From Sporosarcina sp. FSL K6-1522 (GTDB taxonomy: Bacteria; Bacillota; Bacilli; Bacillales_A; Planococcaceae), in assembly GCF_038622445.1 (NCBI RefSeq), contig NZ_CP152019.1, positions 1,896,501 through 1,960,500 of the forward strand: a stretch of 64,000 nucleotides of DNA, written 5' to 3'. The notes below the pieces were generated by a model. It made no database searches. It was not told the origin of the DNA and worked only from the letters and a program-made list of their open reading frames with translations. This document shows positions 36,636 to 57,395 of this stretch, in pieces; positions within the stretch are counted from its first letter, which is position 1, and each line of letters begins with the position of its first letter. A program made the translations under genes and the position numbers.

Positions 36636-36663
36636 TTGACATGCCTGTTGAACATGATAAGAT
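36636..36663 (+). promoter_or_regulatory. Sigma-A promoter of T-box operon 1
   Basis: TTGACA (36636-36641), 16-bp spacer, TAAGAT (36658-36663). The second T-box leader has a matching promoter (TTGACT-16-TAAGAT) with identical flanks (TAAGATTCAA), which supports both. Confidence 0.75.
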
Positions 36664-36681
36664 TCAAAATAATTACTTTTA

Positions 36682-36753
36682 CGTGCCGGCAGGATGCGGG
36701 TATGCAGTCGTTGCGACAGGACGTCGCGCATTTAGACTGCTTTCCTATATTTT
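36682..36753 (+). repeat. Double-hairpin repeat (element B), copy 1, inserted in T-box leader 1
   Basis: About 72 nt are present here but absent from the otherwise parallel leader of T-box 2. It forms hairpin 1 (GCCGGC-AGGAT-GCGGGT, one mismatch) and hairpin 2 (GCAGTC outer stem 36704-36709 with 36735-36740; inner stem GCGAC-AGGAC-GTCGC). A second copy lies at 57271-57333, where the stems are kept by paired base changes. Both hairpins present AGGAY in the loop. Confidence 0.75.
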
Positions 36754-36778
36754 TAAAAAGTAAACAATCACATAGATT

Positions 36779-36986
36779 ATGAGAGATGGTCCAGTAGTTC
36801 GATTGTGAGCAGCAACAAGAGACTGAATGGTAGGTGTGAATTCAGGCAGCAATCCGGACAAATTACGCCATCCGTTTTTCTCAGTTTGACATGAAGTGGA
36901 TGGCCGATTTAGCATCGGTTCATCAATTAGGGTGGTAACGCGGAGAACTCCTTCGTCCCTTTCCAAGGGATGGTAGGGGTTTTTTG
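36779..36986 (+). promoter_or_regulatory. T-box riboswitch 1, tyrosine specifier
   Basis: A complete T-box leader. Stem I runs from GAGAGATGG (with the AGTA loop-E element) to the matching CCATCCGTTTTTCTC. The conserved T-box AGGGTGGTAACGCGG is at 36929-36943, and a terminator (GAACTCC...TCCCTTTCCAAGGGA...GGGGTTTTTT) follows. The specifier position, immediately before the closing helix, reads UAC (36864-36866), a tyrosine codon, followed by G. Uncharged tRNA-Tyr would favour the antiterminator and switch on the NhaC-type transporter and PqqB-like gene. The tyrosine assignment is read from alignment of the two leaders by eye. Confidence 0.9.
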
Positions 36987-37120
36987 TGTTTATTTTTTGG
37001 GACTAGCCTTAGTTATCATGATGTGCGAATGCATGCACTCGACTTAGCACTCCCAAAGACTTTAGTTTTGGAAAATTAAAAAATCAAGTTGTCTTGTCAA
37101 TAAAGAAGGAGATGTTATCA

Positions 37121-38539
37121 ATGAAAAAGGAACTAACTTTTGGAGTGTCAATTATCCCAATATTGGCATTAATGGCTGCGGCGGCCTCATCGATTTTTAT
37201 TTGGAAGGCTGGGATGCATATCCCCTTGCTAATTGGGGTAGTTGTGGCTGCTGTTATTGCGAAAATCTGTGGTTGGAGTTGGTATGAAGTAGAGAAAATG
37301 ATGGTCAACGGCGTATCCAGGGCATTGCCTGCTGTTTTTATATTATTTATTATCGGTATCATTGTGGGTACTTGGATTGCCAGTGGCGTTATCCCGACTA
37401 TGATTTACTTTGGGCTATCGATGATTGAACCTTCACTGTTTGTCCCGCTCGTGGCACTTATTACTGGCATTGTTTCGATTACATTGGGAAGTTCATTCAC
37501 TTCGATTGCGACGATTGGGATTGCTTTTATGGCGATTGGCGAAGGATTAGGCTTTGCTCCGGGGCTTGTGGCAGGGGCAGTCATTTCCGGGGCTTATTTT
37601 GGCGATAAATTATCTCCGTTATCCGATACGACAAATATTGCTCCGGCTATGGCCGAAACCGATTTGTTTAGTCATATTAAGCACATGCTCTGGGACACGA
37701 TTCCAGCATTTGTCATTGCATTGATTTTATATTGGTTTGTTGGGAATTCGGGGGCGGCAGGCAATGCTGTTGATACAAATGGCATTGATGTTATTAAAAC
37801 AGGGTTGGAGGGTGTCTTTACGATTCATCCGTTACTTCTACTTATGCCTATCTTCACCATCATTTTGATGATGAAGCGTGTACCCGCGATTCCAGCGTTG
37901 ACCATTGTAGGACTGTTAGGGGCTGTACTTGCAGTGATTGTGCAAGGGGCTTCTGTTACTTCAATTGTTAAAGTAATGACAAGTGGATTTTCGGTAGATT
38001 CGGGTGTAAAAGCGGTGGATTCTTTGTTAAATAATGGCGGTCTGATGTCTATGCTAGGGACTATTGGTCTGTTAGTCATTGCGACTGCTCTTGGTGGGAT
38101 TCTAGAAGAAACAGGATCTTTTGAAGTGGTCACGAGAAAAATGATAGCCGGTGTTCGCTCAACTGGAACGTTAATTAGTACGACCATCTTTTCGGCTTTT
38201 GTCGTGGCATTTGCAAGCGGTGCACAATTTTTGGCAATCATTTTACCTGCAAGAACATTTGTCCAAACGTATAAAGATCGAGGAATCGATACGAAAAACC
38301 TTTCAAGATGTGTCGAGGCGGCAGGTACTGTAGGGATTAACCTCGTGCCATGGAGTGTTCCGGTCGTTTTTGCGGTGAGCATTCTGGGGGTCAGTCCAGG
38401 TGAGTTTATTCCTTATGCTTTCTTCGCATTTCTCGTTCCACTTATTAATATCATTTTTGGTTTCACGGGCTGGACCATTACCAAGAAAAACTATCGTGAT
38501 GACAGTGAAATAAAAGTTAAGGGGGAAATTTCGTTATGA
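37121..38539 (+). CDS. NhaC-family antiporter, putative tyrosine transporter 1
   Basis: A 472-aa membrane protein with about 11-12 hydrophobic segments and NhaC-family sequence (SSFTSIATIGIAFMAIGEGLG, GAYFGDKLSPLSDTTNIAPA, and VGINLVPWSVP near the C-terminus). NhaC proteins include Na+/H+ and malate-lactate antiporters, and YheL-like members with tyrosine T-boxes have been predicted to carry tyrosine. The UAC T-box directly upstream supports that here. AAGGAG precedes the ATG at 37121; an ATG 27 bases upstream has no site. Its stop overlaps the next start (ATGA). Confidence 0.82.
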   Translation: MKKELTFGVSIIPILALMAAAASSIFIWKAGMHIPLLIGVVVAAVIAKICGWSWYEVEKMMVNGVSRALPAVFILFIIGIIVGTWIASGVIPTMIYFGLSMIEPSLFVPLVALITGIVSITLGSSFTSIATIGIAFMAIGEGLGFAPGLVAGAVISGAYFGDKLSPLSDTTNIAPAMAETDLFSHIKHMLWDTIPAFVIALILYWFVGNSGAAGNAVDTNGIDVIKTGLEGVFTIHPLLLLMPIFTIILMMKRVPAIPALTIVGLLGAVLAVIVQGASVTSIVKVMTSGFSVDSGVKAVDSLLNNGGLMSMLGTIGLLVIATALGGILEETGSFEVVTRKMIAGVRSTGTLISTTIFSAFVVAFASGAQFLAIILPARTFVQTYKDRGIDTKNLSRCVEAAGTVGINLVPWSVPVVFAVSILGVSPGEFIPYAFFAFLVPLINIIFGFTGWTITKKNYRDDSEIKVKGEISL

Positions 38540-39402
38540 GTGAAGTTATTCTACATGTATTAGGAACAGCACAAGACGCTGGCCTTCCGCATCCGAATTG
38601 TTTTTGTAAAAACTGTGCGGAGGCAATTAGCAATCCGGCGTATAGGCGTACTGCGGCGTCATTGGCCATTGTGTTGCCTGAAGAAAAGGCTTGGCATTTG
38701 ATAGACGCAACACCAGACTTAAAAGAGCAGATGGCAAGCGTACAAATCAAACATCATATGCAAGGCCAGCTAATGGCGAGTATCTTTTTGACGCATGCGC
38801 ATTTAGGTCATTATCCGGGATTATTGTTTTTAGGAAAAGAAGCGATGGGTGCAAATAAGGTGCCCGTAATGGCAGGTGCGAAAATGAAGAAAATGTTAGA
38901 GGAACAGGCCCCTTGGAGTCAATTAACAAAATTACACAATATTGACCTGCAAGAAATACGTGATGGACAAGCAATGGCTGTTTCACCTCATGCAACAGTC
39001 ACACCTGTTGAGGTTCCACACAGAAATGAATTTTCGGAGACATTTGCTTTTTGGATTACAGGGACGGAGAAAAAAGTTTTGTACATTCCGGATATTGATC
39101 GATGGGAACAATGGGACACTGATATTTATGAAGCGTGCAAAGAAGCGGACATCTGCTTACTTGATGGCACCTTCCATTCTGCTAAAGATCTTGAAAAGAT
39201 TGGCCGAGATTATCGGGAAATCCCTCATCCGCTCATGACAGAAACAATGGACCGATTACAAGATTTAGTTGAACAAACGGAGATTTATTTCATTCATCTC
39301 AATCACTCGAATCCTGTGATTGATAGGGATCAAACGATTCGCAAGGAGATTGAAATGAAGGGCTTTCATATTGCGGAGGAAGGTATGGAATTTGTTTTGT
39401 GA
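38536..39402 (+). CDS. PqqB-like metallo-beta-lactamase-fold protein
   Basis: A 288-aa MBL-fold protein most like PqqB. It starts VILHVLGTAQDAGLPHPNC, has the CFCKNC cysteine cluster (C22, C24, C27, a structural zinc site in PqqB), and a THAHLGH motif (H87, H89, H92) where the usual HxHxDH aspartate is Gly. Later parts include VEVPHRNE and LLDGTFHS. PqqB acts on the tyrosine of the PqqA peptide in PQQ synthesis, but no pqqA, C, D or E is present nearby. It is translationally coupled to a tyrosine-regulated transporter, suggesting a role in tyrosine-related chemistry or hydrolysis of an imported tyrosine derivative. Function unproven. Confidence 0.8.
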   Translation: MSEVILHVLGTAQDAGLPHPNCFCKNCAEAISNPAYRRTAASLAIVLPEEKAWHLIDATPDLKEQMASVQIKHHMQGQLMASIFLTHAHLGHYPGLLFLGKEAMGANKVPVMAGAKMKKMLEEQAPWSQLTKLHNIDLQEIRDGQAMAVSPHATVTPVEVPHRNEFSETFAFWITGTEKKVLYIPDIDRWEQWDTDIYEACKEADICLLDGTFHSAKDLEKIGRDYREIPHPLMTETMDRLQDLVEQTEIYFIHLNHSNPVIDRDQTIRKEIEMKGFHIAEEGMEFVL

Positions 39403-39451
39403 GGAAAGTGTTGAAAATCCTCGCAGGGAATATACCGAATAGATTCAAAAC

Positions 39452-39479
39452 TTGACTTCTCACATGAACATGGTAAGAT
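39452..39479 (+). promoter_or_regulatory. Sigma-A promoter of T-box operon 2
   Basis: TTGACT (39452-39457), 16-bp spacer, TAAGAT (39474-39479), followed by TCAA as in the first T-box operon. Confidence 0.72.
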
Positions 39480-39531
39480 TCAAGCAATTGCTTTTGTGTA
39501 AAAGTAAACGAGTTTTAAAAATTGAATATAT

Positions 39532-39743
39532 ACGAGAGATGGTGCAGTAGTTCGATTGTGGGCAGCAACAAGAGACTGAATGGCAGGTGAGAATTCAGGC
39601 AGCAATCAGGATGAAGTACGCCATTGGTTTTTCTCAGATCATACATGAAGTGGATGGTCGATCTAGCATCGATTCATCAAGTAGGGTGGTAACGCGGAGA
39701 ACTCCTTCGTCCCTTTCCAAGGGATGGATGGAGTTTTTTTGTA
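39532..39743 (+). promoter_or_regulatory. T-box riboswitch 2, tyrosine specifier
   Basis: A T-box leader closely similar to the first one: GAGAGATGG...AGTAG at the base of stem I, AGGGTGGTAACGCGG at 39683-39697, and the terminator stem GAACTCC...GGAGTTTTTTT. The specifier triplet before the closing CCAT strand is UAC (39617-39619), tyrosine. Leader 2 lacks the 72-nt hairpin insertion found in leader 1. It controls the second NhaC-type gene. Confidence 0.9.
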
Positions 39744-39799
39744 TTCATTTTTCCAGACATCTTGCGCTTTTCTTATCAATCATCAAGGAGGAATTCATC

Positions 39800-41194
39800 A
39801 TGTTTCGCATAAAGGCCGTGGTTACGCCCACTTTCATCGAGGCGTTAGTACTAGTAGTTGCAATTGTATCTATGATCAGTGTTAGTATTGTTAAATTTGG
39901 TTCGGTGCCACATTTGCCGATTTTGTTTTCAATTTTGTTATTGATTTGTTATGGGCTTGTGAAAAAAGTGTCGTACCGCCAGCTTGAAGGTGGATTAGTG
40001 GAAGGCGCAGGCGCGGGGATGAGTGCGGTGTTCTTGTTCTTCTTCATCGGTATTTTGGTCAGTAGTTGGATTATGAGCGGTACGATTCCGACGCTCATTT
40101 ATGCAGGGTTTACGATGATTACGCCGTCTTACTTCTTTGCGATTGTGTTTGTTGTAACAGCAATTGTTGGGATTTCCATTGGGAGCTCCTTGACGACGGT
40201 GGCGACGGTAGGGGTTGCCTTTATCGGGATGGCGACTGTTCTTGATTTGTCATTGGCGATAACAGCAGGTGCGGTTGTATCAGGCGCGTTTTTCGGTGAT
40301 AAGATGTCACCGCTATCGGATACGACGAACTTGGCTGCGTCAATTGTTGGGGTCGATTTGTTTGAGCATATTCGTAATATGGGGTGGACAACTTTTCCGG
40401 CGTTTCTGTTATCTTTAGTGTTCTTCGGCTTGTTGTCGCCAAGTGTGACGTTGAGCGAGGTTGATAAAATTACGATGTTCCAAGAGGGATTACTGGCAAC
40501 GGGCATGATTCATTGGTATACGGTGCTTCCACTTGTGTTACTAGCTGTTTTGACGATTATGAAAGTGCCTGCACTGATGACATTGGCAATCAGTTCAGCG
40601 AGTGCAGTGGCAGTTTCTTATTTGCATCACAGTTATAGTGCACCAGAAGTGTTTAGCATTTTATTCAAAGGTTTTGTGTCAACAACTGGCATTGAAGAGA
40701 TTGATGCACTGCTGACACGCGGTGGTATGGAAAGCATGATGTTTACGATTGGTTTGGTTTTGCTGGCGCTTAGTATGGGGGGCTTGTTGTTTACGCTTGG
40801 CATTGTTCAATGCTTATTGGCGAAAATCGAAAGCTTGTTGCGGAAAGTATCTTCGGTTATTGTGGCGTCTGCTTTGACGGCAATTGGTATTAACGTGTTG
40901 ATTGGTGAACAGTATTTATCGATACTATTGACGGGGCAAGCGTTTCAAGGACAATATGAAAAAGTAGGACTTGCAGGTAAAAACTTGAGCCGCGTTATGG
41001 AAGATGCAGGAACAGTAGTCAATCCGCTTGTGCCGTGGAGTGTGTGTGGGATTTTCATTGCAGATATGTTAGGTGTGGGAGTGCTTACGTATTTACCATT
41101 CGCTTTCTTCTGTCTGCTGTCTCCGATTTTGACGGTGCTGTTTGGATTTTTAGGGAAAACATTGACGTATACAGAACAGAAATCAGCAGAGTGA
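39800..41194 (+). CDS. NhaC-family antiporter, putative tyrosine transporter 2
   Basis: A 464-aa NhaC-family membrane protein, paralogous to the first one (GAFFGDKMSPLSDTTNLAAS, VNPLVPWSVCG). The true start is the ATG at 39800 with AAGGAGG 8 nt upstream. An in-frame ATG at 39587 would place the N-terminus inside the T-box RNA and is rejected. The tyrosine T-box upstream suggests induction when charged tRNA-Tyr is scarce. Two separately controlled paralogues may differ in affinity, direction or ligand. Confidence 0.82.
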   Translation: MFRIKAVVTPTFIEALVLVVAIVSMISVSIVKFGSVPHLPILFSILLLICYGLVKKVSYRQLEGGLVEGAGAGMSAVFLFFFIGILVSSWIMSGTIPTLIYAGFTMITPSYFFAIVFVVTAIVGISIGSSLTTVATVGVAFIGMATVLDLSLAITAGAVVSGAFFGDKMSPLSDTTNLAASIVGVDLFEHIRNMGWTTFPAFLLSLVFFGLLSPSVTLSEVDKITMFQEGLLATGMIHWYTVLPLVLLAVLTIMKVPALMTLAISSASAVAVSYLHHSYSAPEVFSILFKGFVSTTGIEEIDALLTRGGMESMMFTIGLVLLALSMGGLLFTLGIVQCLLAKIESLLRKVSSVIVASALTAIGINVLIGEQYLSILLTGQAFQGQYEKVGLAGKNLSRVMEDAGTVVNPLVPWSVCGIFIADMLGVGVLTYLPFAFFCLLSPILTVLFGFLGKTLTYTEQKSAE

Positions 41195-57271: not shown

Positions 57272-57333
57272 GGGCCAACAGGATGTTGGTCATGCAGATG
57301 TTGCCACAGGACGTGGCGATCTTAGTCTGCGTA
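57271..57333 (+). repeat. Double-hairpin repeat (element B), copy 2
   Basis: Hairpin 1 GCCAAC-AGGAT-GTTGGT and hairpin 2 with outer stem GCAGAT/GTCTGC and inner stem GCCAC-AGGAC-GTGGC. Compared with the copy at 36682-36753, inner C-G has become G-C, and an outer T-A has become A-T. The loops AGGAT and AGGAC are unchanged. Confidence 0.75.
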
Positions 57334-57395
57334 CCGCTATCGTTCAGCCGATATTTGAACATCCACTGAACAGGAAACAAAACCGCATTCATTTC

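Follow-up and report, generated by a model that had tools for sequence, protein, structure and literature searches.

In Firmicutes, NhaC genes that carry a tyrosine (Tyr) T-box have been predicted to encode Tyr transporters (PMC2494555), and PqqB, a protein of the metallo-β-lactamase (MBL) fold, has been assigned an Fe-dependent hydroxylase chemistry (PMC10906245). Within a 64,000-nucleotide stretch of the genome of Sporosarcina sp. FSL K6-1522 (contig NZ_CP152019.1, positions 1,896,501 to 1,960,500, forward strand; hereafter the window), an earlier note made from the letters alone had described positions 36,636 to 41,194 as a Tyr T-box regulon joining two NhaC-type transporters with a PqqB homologue. 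The present computational analysis, in which the T-boxes were identified with Rfam RF00230 and the genes by profile scores, confirmed this locus overall, including its Tyr T-box control of NhaC, as predicted earlier for other Firmicutes. The host genome is complete (4.39 Mb, single contig), and the closest named relatives at the locus are Sporosarcina species. Two units were recognized, unit 1 comprising leader 1, NhaC1 and the PqqB-like gene, and unit 2 comprising leader 2 and NhaC2:

36772..36963, + strand: T-box leader 1 (RF00230, 69.4 bits, E 4e-15), with the specifier UAC at 36864-36866 and the T-box motif at 36929-36942
37121..38539, + strand: NhaC1, dedicated NhaC-family transporter (TIGR00931, 432 bits), one of the enzyme-linked NhaCs that form a single group in the tree
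38536..39402, + strand: PqqB-like HxHxGH MBL-fold enzyme (Pfam Lactamase_B_2, PF12706; TIGR02108, 140 bits; AlphaFold2 pLDDT 94.9)
39525..39717, + strand: T-box leader 2 (RF00230, 67.7 bits, E 1e-14), with the specifier UAC at 39617-39619
39800..41194, + strand: NhaC2, distant NhaC-family transporter (TIGR00931, 403 bits; 35% identity to NhaC1)

We favor, at a probability of roughly 0.4, a tyrosine-starvation scavenging regulon in which NhaC1 would import a tyrosine source and the MBL enzyme would free tyrosine from it. The computed evidence comprises the two RNA elements with their UAC specifiers and terminators, the operon layout, the exclusive and conserved pairing between the enzyme and a single NhaC subfamily, the fold of the enzyme and its PqqB-unlike ligands.

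Tyrosine T-boxes precede both units

Both leaders span the entire RF00230 model (positions 1-219), with scores below its gathering score of 93, as is also the case for the T-box of tyrS in the same genome (86 bits). An Rfam search of the full window at gathering cutoffs missed both T-boxes, and local searches recovered them. The specifier columns of the covariance model read AAAU-UAC-G in leader 1 and GAAG-UAC-G in leader 2, and the same register in other T-boxes of this genome, whose 3' genes were named by eye from translations, gave GAAU-UAC-A for tyrS, GAAG-UUC-A for pheS, GAAU-GUC-A for valS and GAAA-CCU-A for proS. The UAC specifier proposed in the earlier note, for which a different codon under proper covariance modelling had been named as a refutation, was thus retained in both leaders by the model and by the tyrS/pheS calibration. 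Each leader is accompanied by a hairpin with a U tract, the fold of which was far more stable than those of shuffled sequences:

36942..36985, + strand: intrinsic terminator of leader 1 (fold z -3.1), overlapping the antiterminator
39696..39739, + strand: intrinsic terminator of leader 2 (fold z -4.3), also found by the terminator scan

When stem I was folded alone, its energy was not significant (z 0.1), which does not weigh against the covariance match. Full-length leaders with a Tyr codon in register and an alternative terminator place both elements in the Tyr class, and regulation of the locus by Tyr T-boxes is well supported. On the basis of established T-box biology, both units would be induced by uncharged tRNA-Tyr. 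The two leaders are identical at 191 of 213 positions (90%), and one was thus probably copied from the other.

Two further T-boxes were observed in this genome. One with an AUG (Met) specifier (C1:2222404-2222682; L011 1501-1779, - strand) sits 5' of an open reading frame (ORF) resembling, as named by eye, a DUF62-type SAM hydroxide adenosyltransferase, and a Phe (UUC) T-box (C1:3499324-3499551; L004 1501-1728, + strand) lies 5' of an NSS-type transporter ORF, an arrangement reported for the B. cereus group (PMC2494555).

The enzyme is paired with its own NhaC subfamily

NhaC1 and NhaC2 both scored above the NhaC equivalog cutoff (TIGR00931, 370 bits). The family assignment of the "two NhaC paralogues" therefore stood, whereas their close paralogy did not, since the proteins share only 35% identity despite their 90%-identical T-boxes and are paralogues in the wide sense only. 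A sequence search for a solved NhaC relative matched no structure. By analogy with the Tyr T-box/NhaC precedent, both transporters would handle tyrosine or a tyrosine compound.

The PqqB-like ORF overlaps NhaC1, as had been noted before, by 4 nt (ATGA), and this contiguity recurs in Bacilli. A scan of genomes with the enzyme alignment retained 80 of more than 580 candidate loci, and in all 14 named Bacilli loci, from five families, an NhaC gene lies directly 5' on the same strand, with an overlap usually of 4-13 nt (genera Sporosarcina, Lederbergia, Neobacillus, Bacillus, Paucisalibacillus, Paenibacillus, Scopulibacillus, Pseudalkalibacillus and Oceanobacillus). In the trees, the linked NhaC proteins formed one group against 33 other NhaC rows (100/100 support), and the linked MBL enzymes likewise formed one group within their wider family (100/100 support). 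Among 29 class-wide NhaC loci (L204-L232), the enzyme gene occurred within 1.5 kb only at the NhaC1 orthologue L204; at the other 28 (39-45% identity to NhaC1), no enzyme gene and no T-box motif lay within that distance. Matches were found in 29 of 261 genomes of the same order, all but one of them in the same genus, and strong matches in only six of a class-wide sample of 399, indicating that the pair is tight but patchy. The enzyme copies of genomes G571 and G603 have no NhaC alongside. Decaying copies were also seen in relatives: the enzyme gene is split across two frames at L053 and L055 (G208), NhaC lacks most of its middle at L190 (G211), and a C-terminal remnant only is left at L054 (G221).

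The survey of T-box/NhaC/pqqB-like neighborhoods that had been suggested earlier revealed the tyrosine link in several families. A T-box precedes the pair in 8 of the 14 named Bacilli loci and occurs in 17 of 26 relatives' regions (one of which ends at a contig end and another of which has a damaged NhaC), and all specifiers read there were UAC. In both Paucisalibacillus globulus strains (L061 and L062), three Tyr T-boxes follow one another in tandem about 2.0 to 1.5 kb 5' of the enzyme gene, every copy having a UAC specifier and a T-box motif of its own. Mapped on the enzyme tree, Tyr T-box presence required six changes, at least five of which were forced by well supported branches; tyrosine control was thus gained or lost several times, and this recurrence lends a functional link to tyrosine more credibility than one chance event could.

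The MBL enzyme is distinct from PqqB

The enzyme was predicted to adopt the MBL fold along its full length (AlphaFold2 pLDDT 94.9, pTM 0.93), and the closest solved structures were PqqB (4z7r, Z 31.9, 26% identity) followed by the PhnP family (Z 25-26). The motifs T86-H87-A88-H89-x-G91-H92, H162-R163-x-E165, D210 and H254-x-N256-H257-x-N259 show no variation among 57 sequences representing many phyla. The canonical HxHxDH is thus absent, being replaced by HAHxGH with the invariant Gly91 at the Asp position, and the other MBL ligands (H162, D210 and H254) are in place. In the profile alignment, T-N-G-D-V-D-H or L-D-S-Q-I-D-H of PqqB faces T-H-A-H-x-G-H of the MBL enzyme. The ligands of the two are therefore reciprocal, PqqB being without the site-1 HxH and retaining the site-2 Asp-His, the His of which (H93) lines the PqqB cavity together with H269 (PMC2294125), whereas the HxHxGH family retains HxH and is without the Asp. 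This metal-site assignment draws on the alignment of sequences and on what is generally known of the MBL superfamily. As a guess, the lost Asp may be compensated for by Q13-D14, an invariant pair close to the N-terminus.

Against the PqqB equivalog model (TIGR02108, cutoff 245 bits), the enzyme scored 140 bits and six relatives 105-143 bits. PqqB identity was rejected on this score, on the replacement of the site-2 Asp by Gly91 and on the reciprocal ligands, which leave no good ground for extending the Fe-dependent hydroxylase chemistry of PqqB to the HxHxGH enzyme; reading the gene through PqqB chemistry, as the earlier note had done, was accordingly not supported, although the homologue itself and its overlap with the transporter gene were upheld.

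A role in PQQ synthesis, which homology-based annotation would suggest in that it would probably name the gene PqqB, was likewise considered and rejected as very unlikely, its probability being close to nil. Besides the sub-cutoff score of 140 versus 245 bits, no pqqE above the cutoff was found in the complete genome (best 53 versus 381 bits), and pqqC gave no match in a search without positive control; pqqA and pqqD were not searched for. The refuting case named in the earlier note, other pqq genes elsewhere in the genome with this gene part of PQQ synthesis, was thus not borne out for pqqE and, with the said limit of the search, for pqqC.

Relatives of the HxHxGH enzyme outside Bacilli

Relatives among the kept loci came from Bacteroidota, Gammaproteobacteria, Acidobacteriota, Aminicenantes, Marinimicrobia and others. 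As judged by eye and with no predictor, most of the non-Bacilli proteins read start with a signal peptide or lipobox (a Tat-like motif in Aminicenantes), in contrast to the NhaC-linked enzymes of Bacilli, which begin directly at the fold. The apparently exported HxHxGH MBL proteins span loci L070-L135 (Bacteroidota, Gammaproteobacteria, Acidobacteriota and Aminicenantes). Export of the enzyme in some bacteria, and its retention in the cytoplasm together with a dedicated transporter in others, is consistent with a hydrolase of an external compound. It is conceivable, though less likely than not, that this is an uncharacterized multi-phylum family, the Bacilli branch of which uses, together with its own NhaC subfamily and under tRNA-Tyr control, a source of tyrosine that bacteria are not yet known to exploit for their tyrosine pools.

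Proposed mechanism and alternative explanations

In the proposed mechanism, uncharged tRNA-Tyr would pair with the UAC specifier and the T-box motif and block the terminator, so that transcription would read into NhaC1 and the HxHxGH MBL enzyme in unit 1 and into NhaC2 in unit 2. The most likely cargo of NhaC1 is tyrosine or a tyrosine-containing compound, which would be taken up by coupling to cations or in exchange for a product, and the cytoplasmic MBL enzyme most likely hydrolyzes the imported compound, which may be an amide, an ester, a conjugate or a small peptide; the released tyrosine would feed tyrosyl-tRNA synthesis. We infer that the transporters handle tyrosine or a derivative and, with less confidence, that the enzyme hydrolyzes the imported compound and that tyrosine is its product.

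Several observations weigh against this scavenging model. The closest characterized hydrolases are those of the PhnP family, whose substrates are phosphoesters or diphosphates, and the replacement of the HxHxDH Asp by Gly could change or impair hydrolysis. The genome has a prephenate dehydrogenase-family gene, and scavenging is hence not the sole source of tyrosine. The pair also occurs without a T-box in several genomes (e.g., L057 and L067-L069), which indicates that the transporter and the enzyme belong closer together than either does to the T-box, and the role of the pair need not always be tyrosine-related. Outside Bacilli, 63 loci revealed no conserved neighbor of the enzyme but lineage-local synteny only, and thus gave no hint of the substrate.

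Alternatively, NhaC1 might be a plain tyrosine transporter and the MBL enzyme, merely co-transcribed, might act on a non-tyrosine substrate such as a phosphodiester. Structures of the PhnP family and of nucleotide-binding MBL proteins are the next-nearest folds after PqqB, there is a weak PhnP profile match (42 bits), and the enzyme family occurs without NhaC in other phyla; nevertheless, in Bacilli the enzyme pairs exclusively with a single NhaC subfamily, usually with overlapping frames, which points to a shared substrate, and the Asp of the PhnP-type HxHxDH is absent, so that we regard this explanation as possible but rather doubtful. The tight NhaC-enzyme pair also speaks for a precursor/product exchanger or exporter in a tyrosine-related pathway, with the enzyme converting the imported precursor into an output that is not necessarily free tyrosine. 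Exchangers do occur in the NhaC family, as indicated by the match of NhaC1 to the model of the ArcD arginine/ornithine antiporter (NF052307), but its 358 bits are far under the cutoff of 650, and induction by uncharged tRNA-Tyr argues for the supply of tyrosine over its use, which renders this arrangement unlikely. The enzyme might also be a PqqB-type iron-dependent hydroxylase with tyrosine or a tyrosine peptide as its substrate, but a T-box sensing tyrosine shortage is not expected to switch on a tyrosine-consuming step. PqqB provides the top matches in the Protein Data Bank (PDB; Z 31.9, 26% identity), yet it has Asp-His without HxH, while the HxHxGH family has HxH and an invariant Gly, and the enzyme lies under the PqqB cutoff; a hydroxylase of this kind is therefore quite improbable. 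Of the earlier suggestion that the protein either frees tyrosine from an imported derivative or modifies tyrosine, the hydrolase half thus remains plausible and the modification half is weakened.

Other features of the locus

Promoter-like sites lie approximately 50-110 bases 5' of each leader, and are weak evidence taken alone:

36636..36663, + strand: promoter-like site of unit 1, TTGACA-16-TAAGAT (consensus scan, 10/12 matches, a level similar to that expected by chance)
39452..39479, + strand: promoter-like site of unit 2, TTGACT-16-TAAGAT (consensus scan, 9/12)

The start at 36636 chosen in the earlier note coincides with the -35 element of the first site. In addition, two matches to the Bacillaceae-1 sRNA (RF01690; 69 and 73 bits) were found at 36686-36751 and 57275-57341, both on the - strand; the former lies just 5' of T-box 1, on the strand opposite to it.

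Comparison with known systems

T-box specifiers are among the rare cases in which a regulator names a metabolite, and the UAC specifier found herein indicates the class of substrate used by an enzyme family that occurs across many phyla and is likely to receive the PqqB label by homology. The Bacilli cassette thus offers a direct handle on the function of the HxHxGH family, and cautions that the PqqB label is unsafe for standalone PqqB-like genes. Tyr T-boxes on NhaC genes are already known, whereas neither the T-box/NhaC/MBL combination nor the standalone PqqB-like HxHxGH family was found in the literature searched, which covers part of the published work.

Compared with the ArcD antiporter, NhaC1 shares the NhaC family and the possibility of metabolite exchange, but falls well under the cutoff of its model. 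PhnP and the PhnP-family diphosphatase (PDB 3g1p and 6b9v) have in common with the enzyme the MBL fold, the HxH ligands and a Cys-rich N-terminus; they differ in that the Asp of HxHxDH is an invariant Gly in the enzyme, which matched them at Z 25-26 and scored 42 bits with TIGR03307 (cutoff 272). With PqqB (PDB 4z7r and 1xto), the enzyme shares the whole-length MBL fold, an N-terminal CxC..C motif and 26% identity, whereas its sub-cutoff score, its reciprocal metal ligands, its linkage to a transporter and a genome without pqqE over the cutoff set it apart. The Tyr T-box NhaCs of Firmicutes, such as BA4353 of B. anthracis and those of lactobacilli (Wels 2008, PMC2494555), have the same Tyr specifier and were predicted to transport tyrosine; PqqB is unmentioned there, while the present locus combines an NhaC-MBL pair with two adjacent units under 90%-identical T-boxes.

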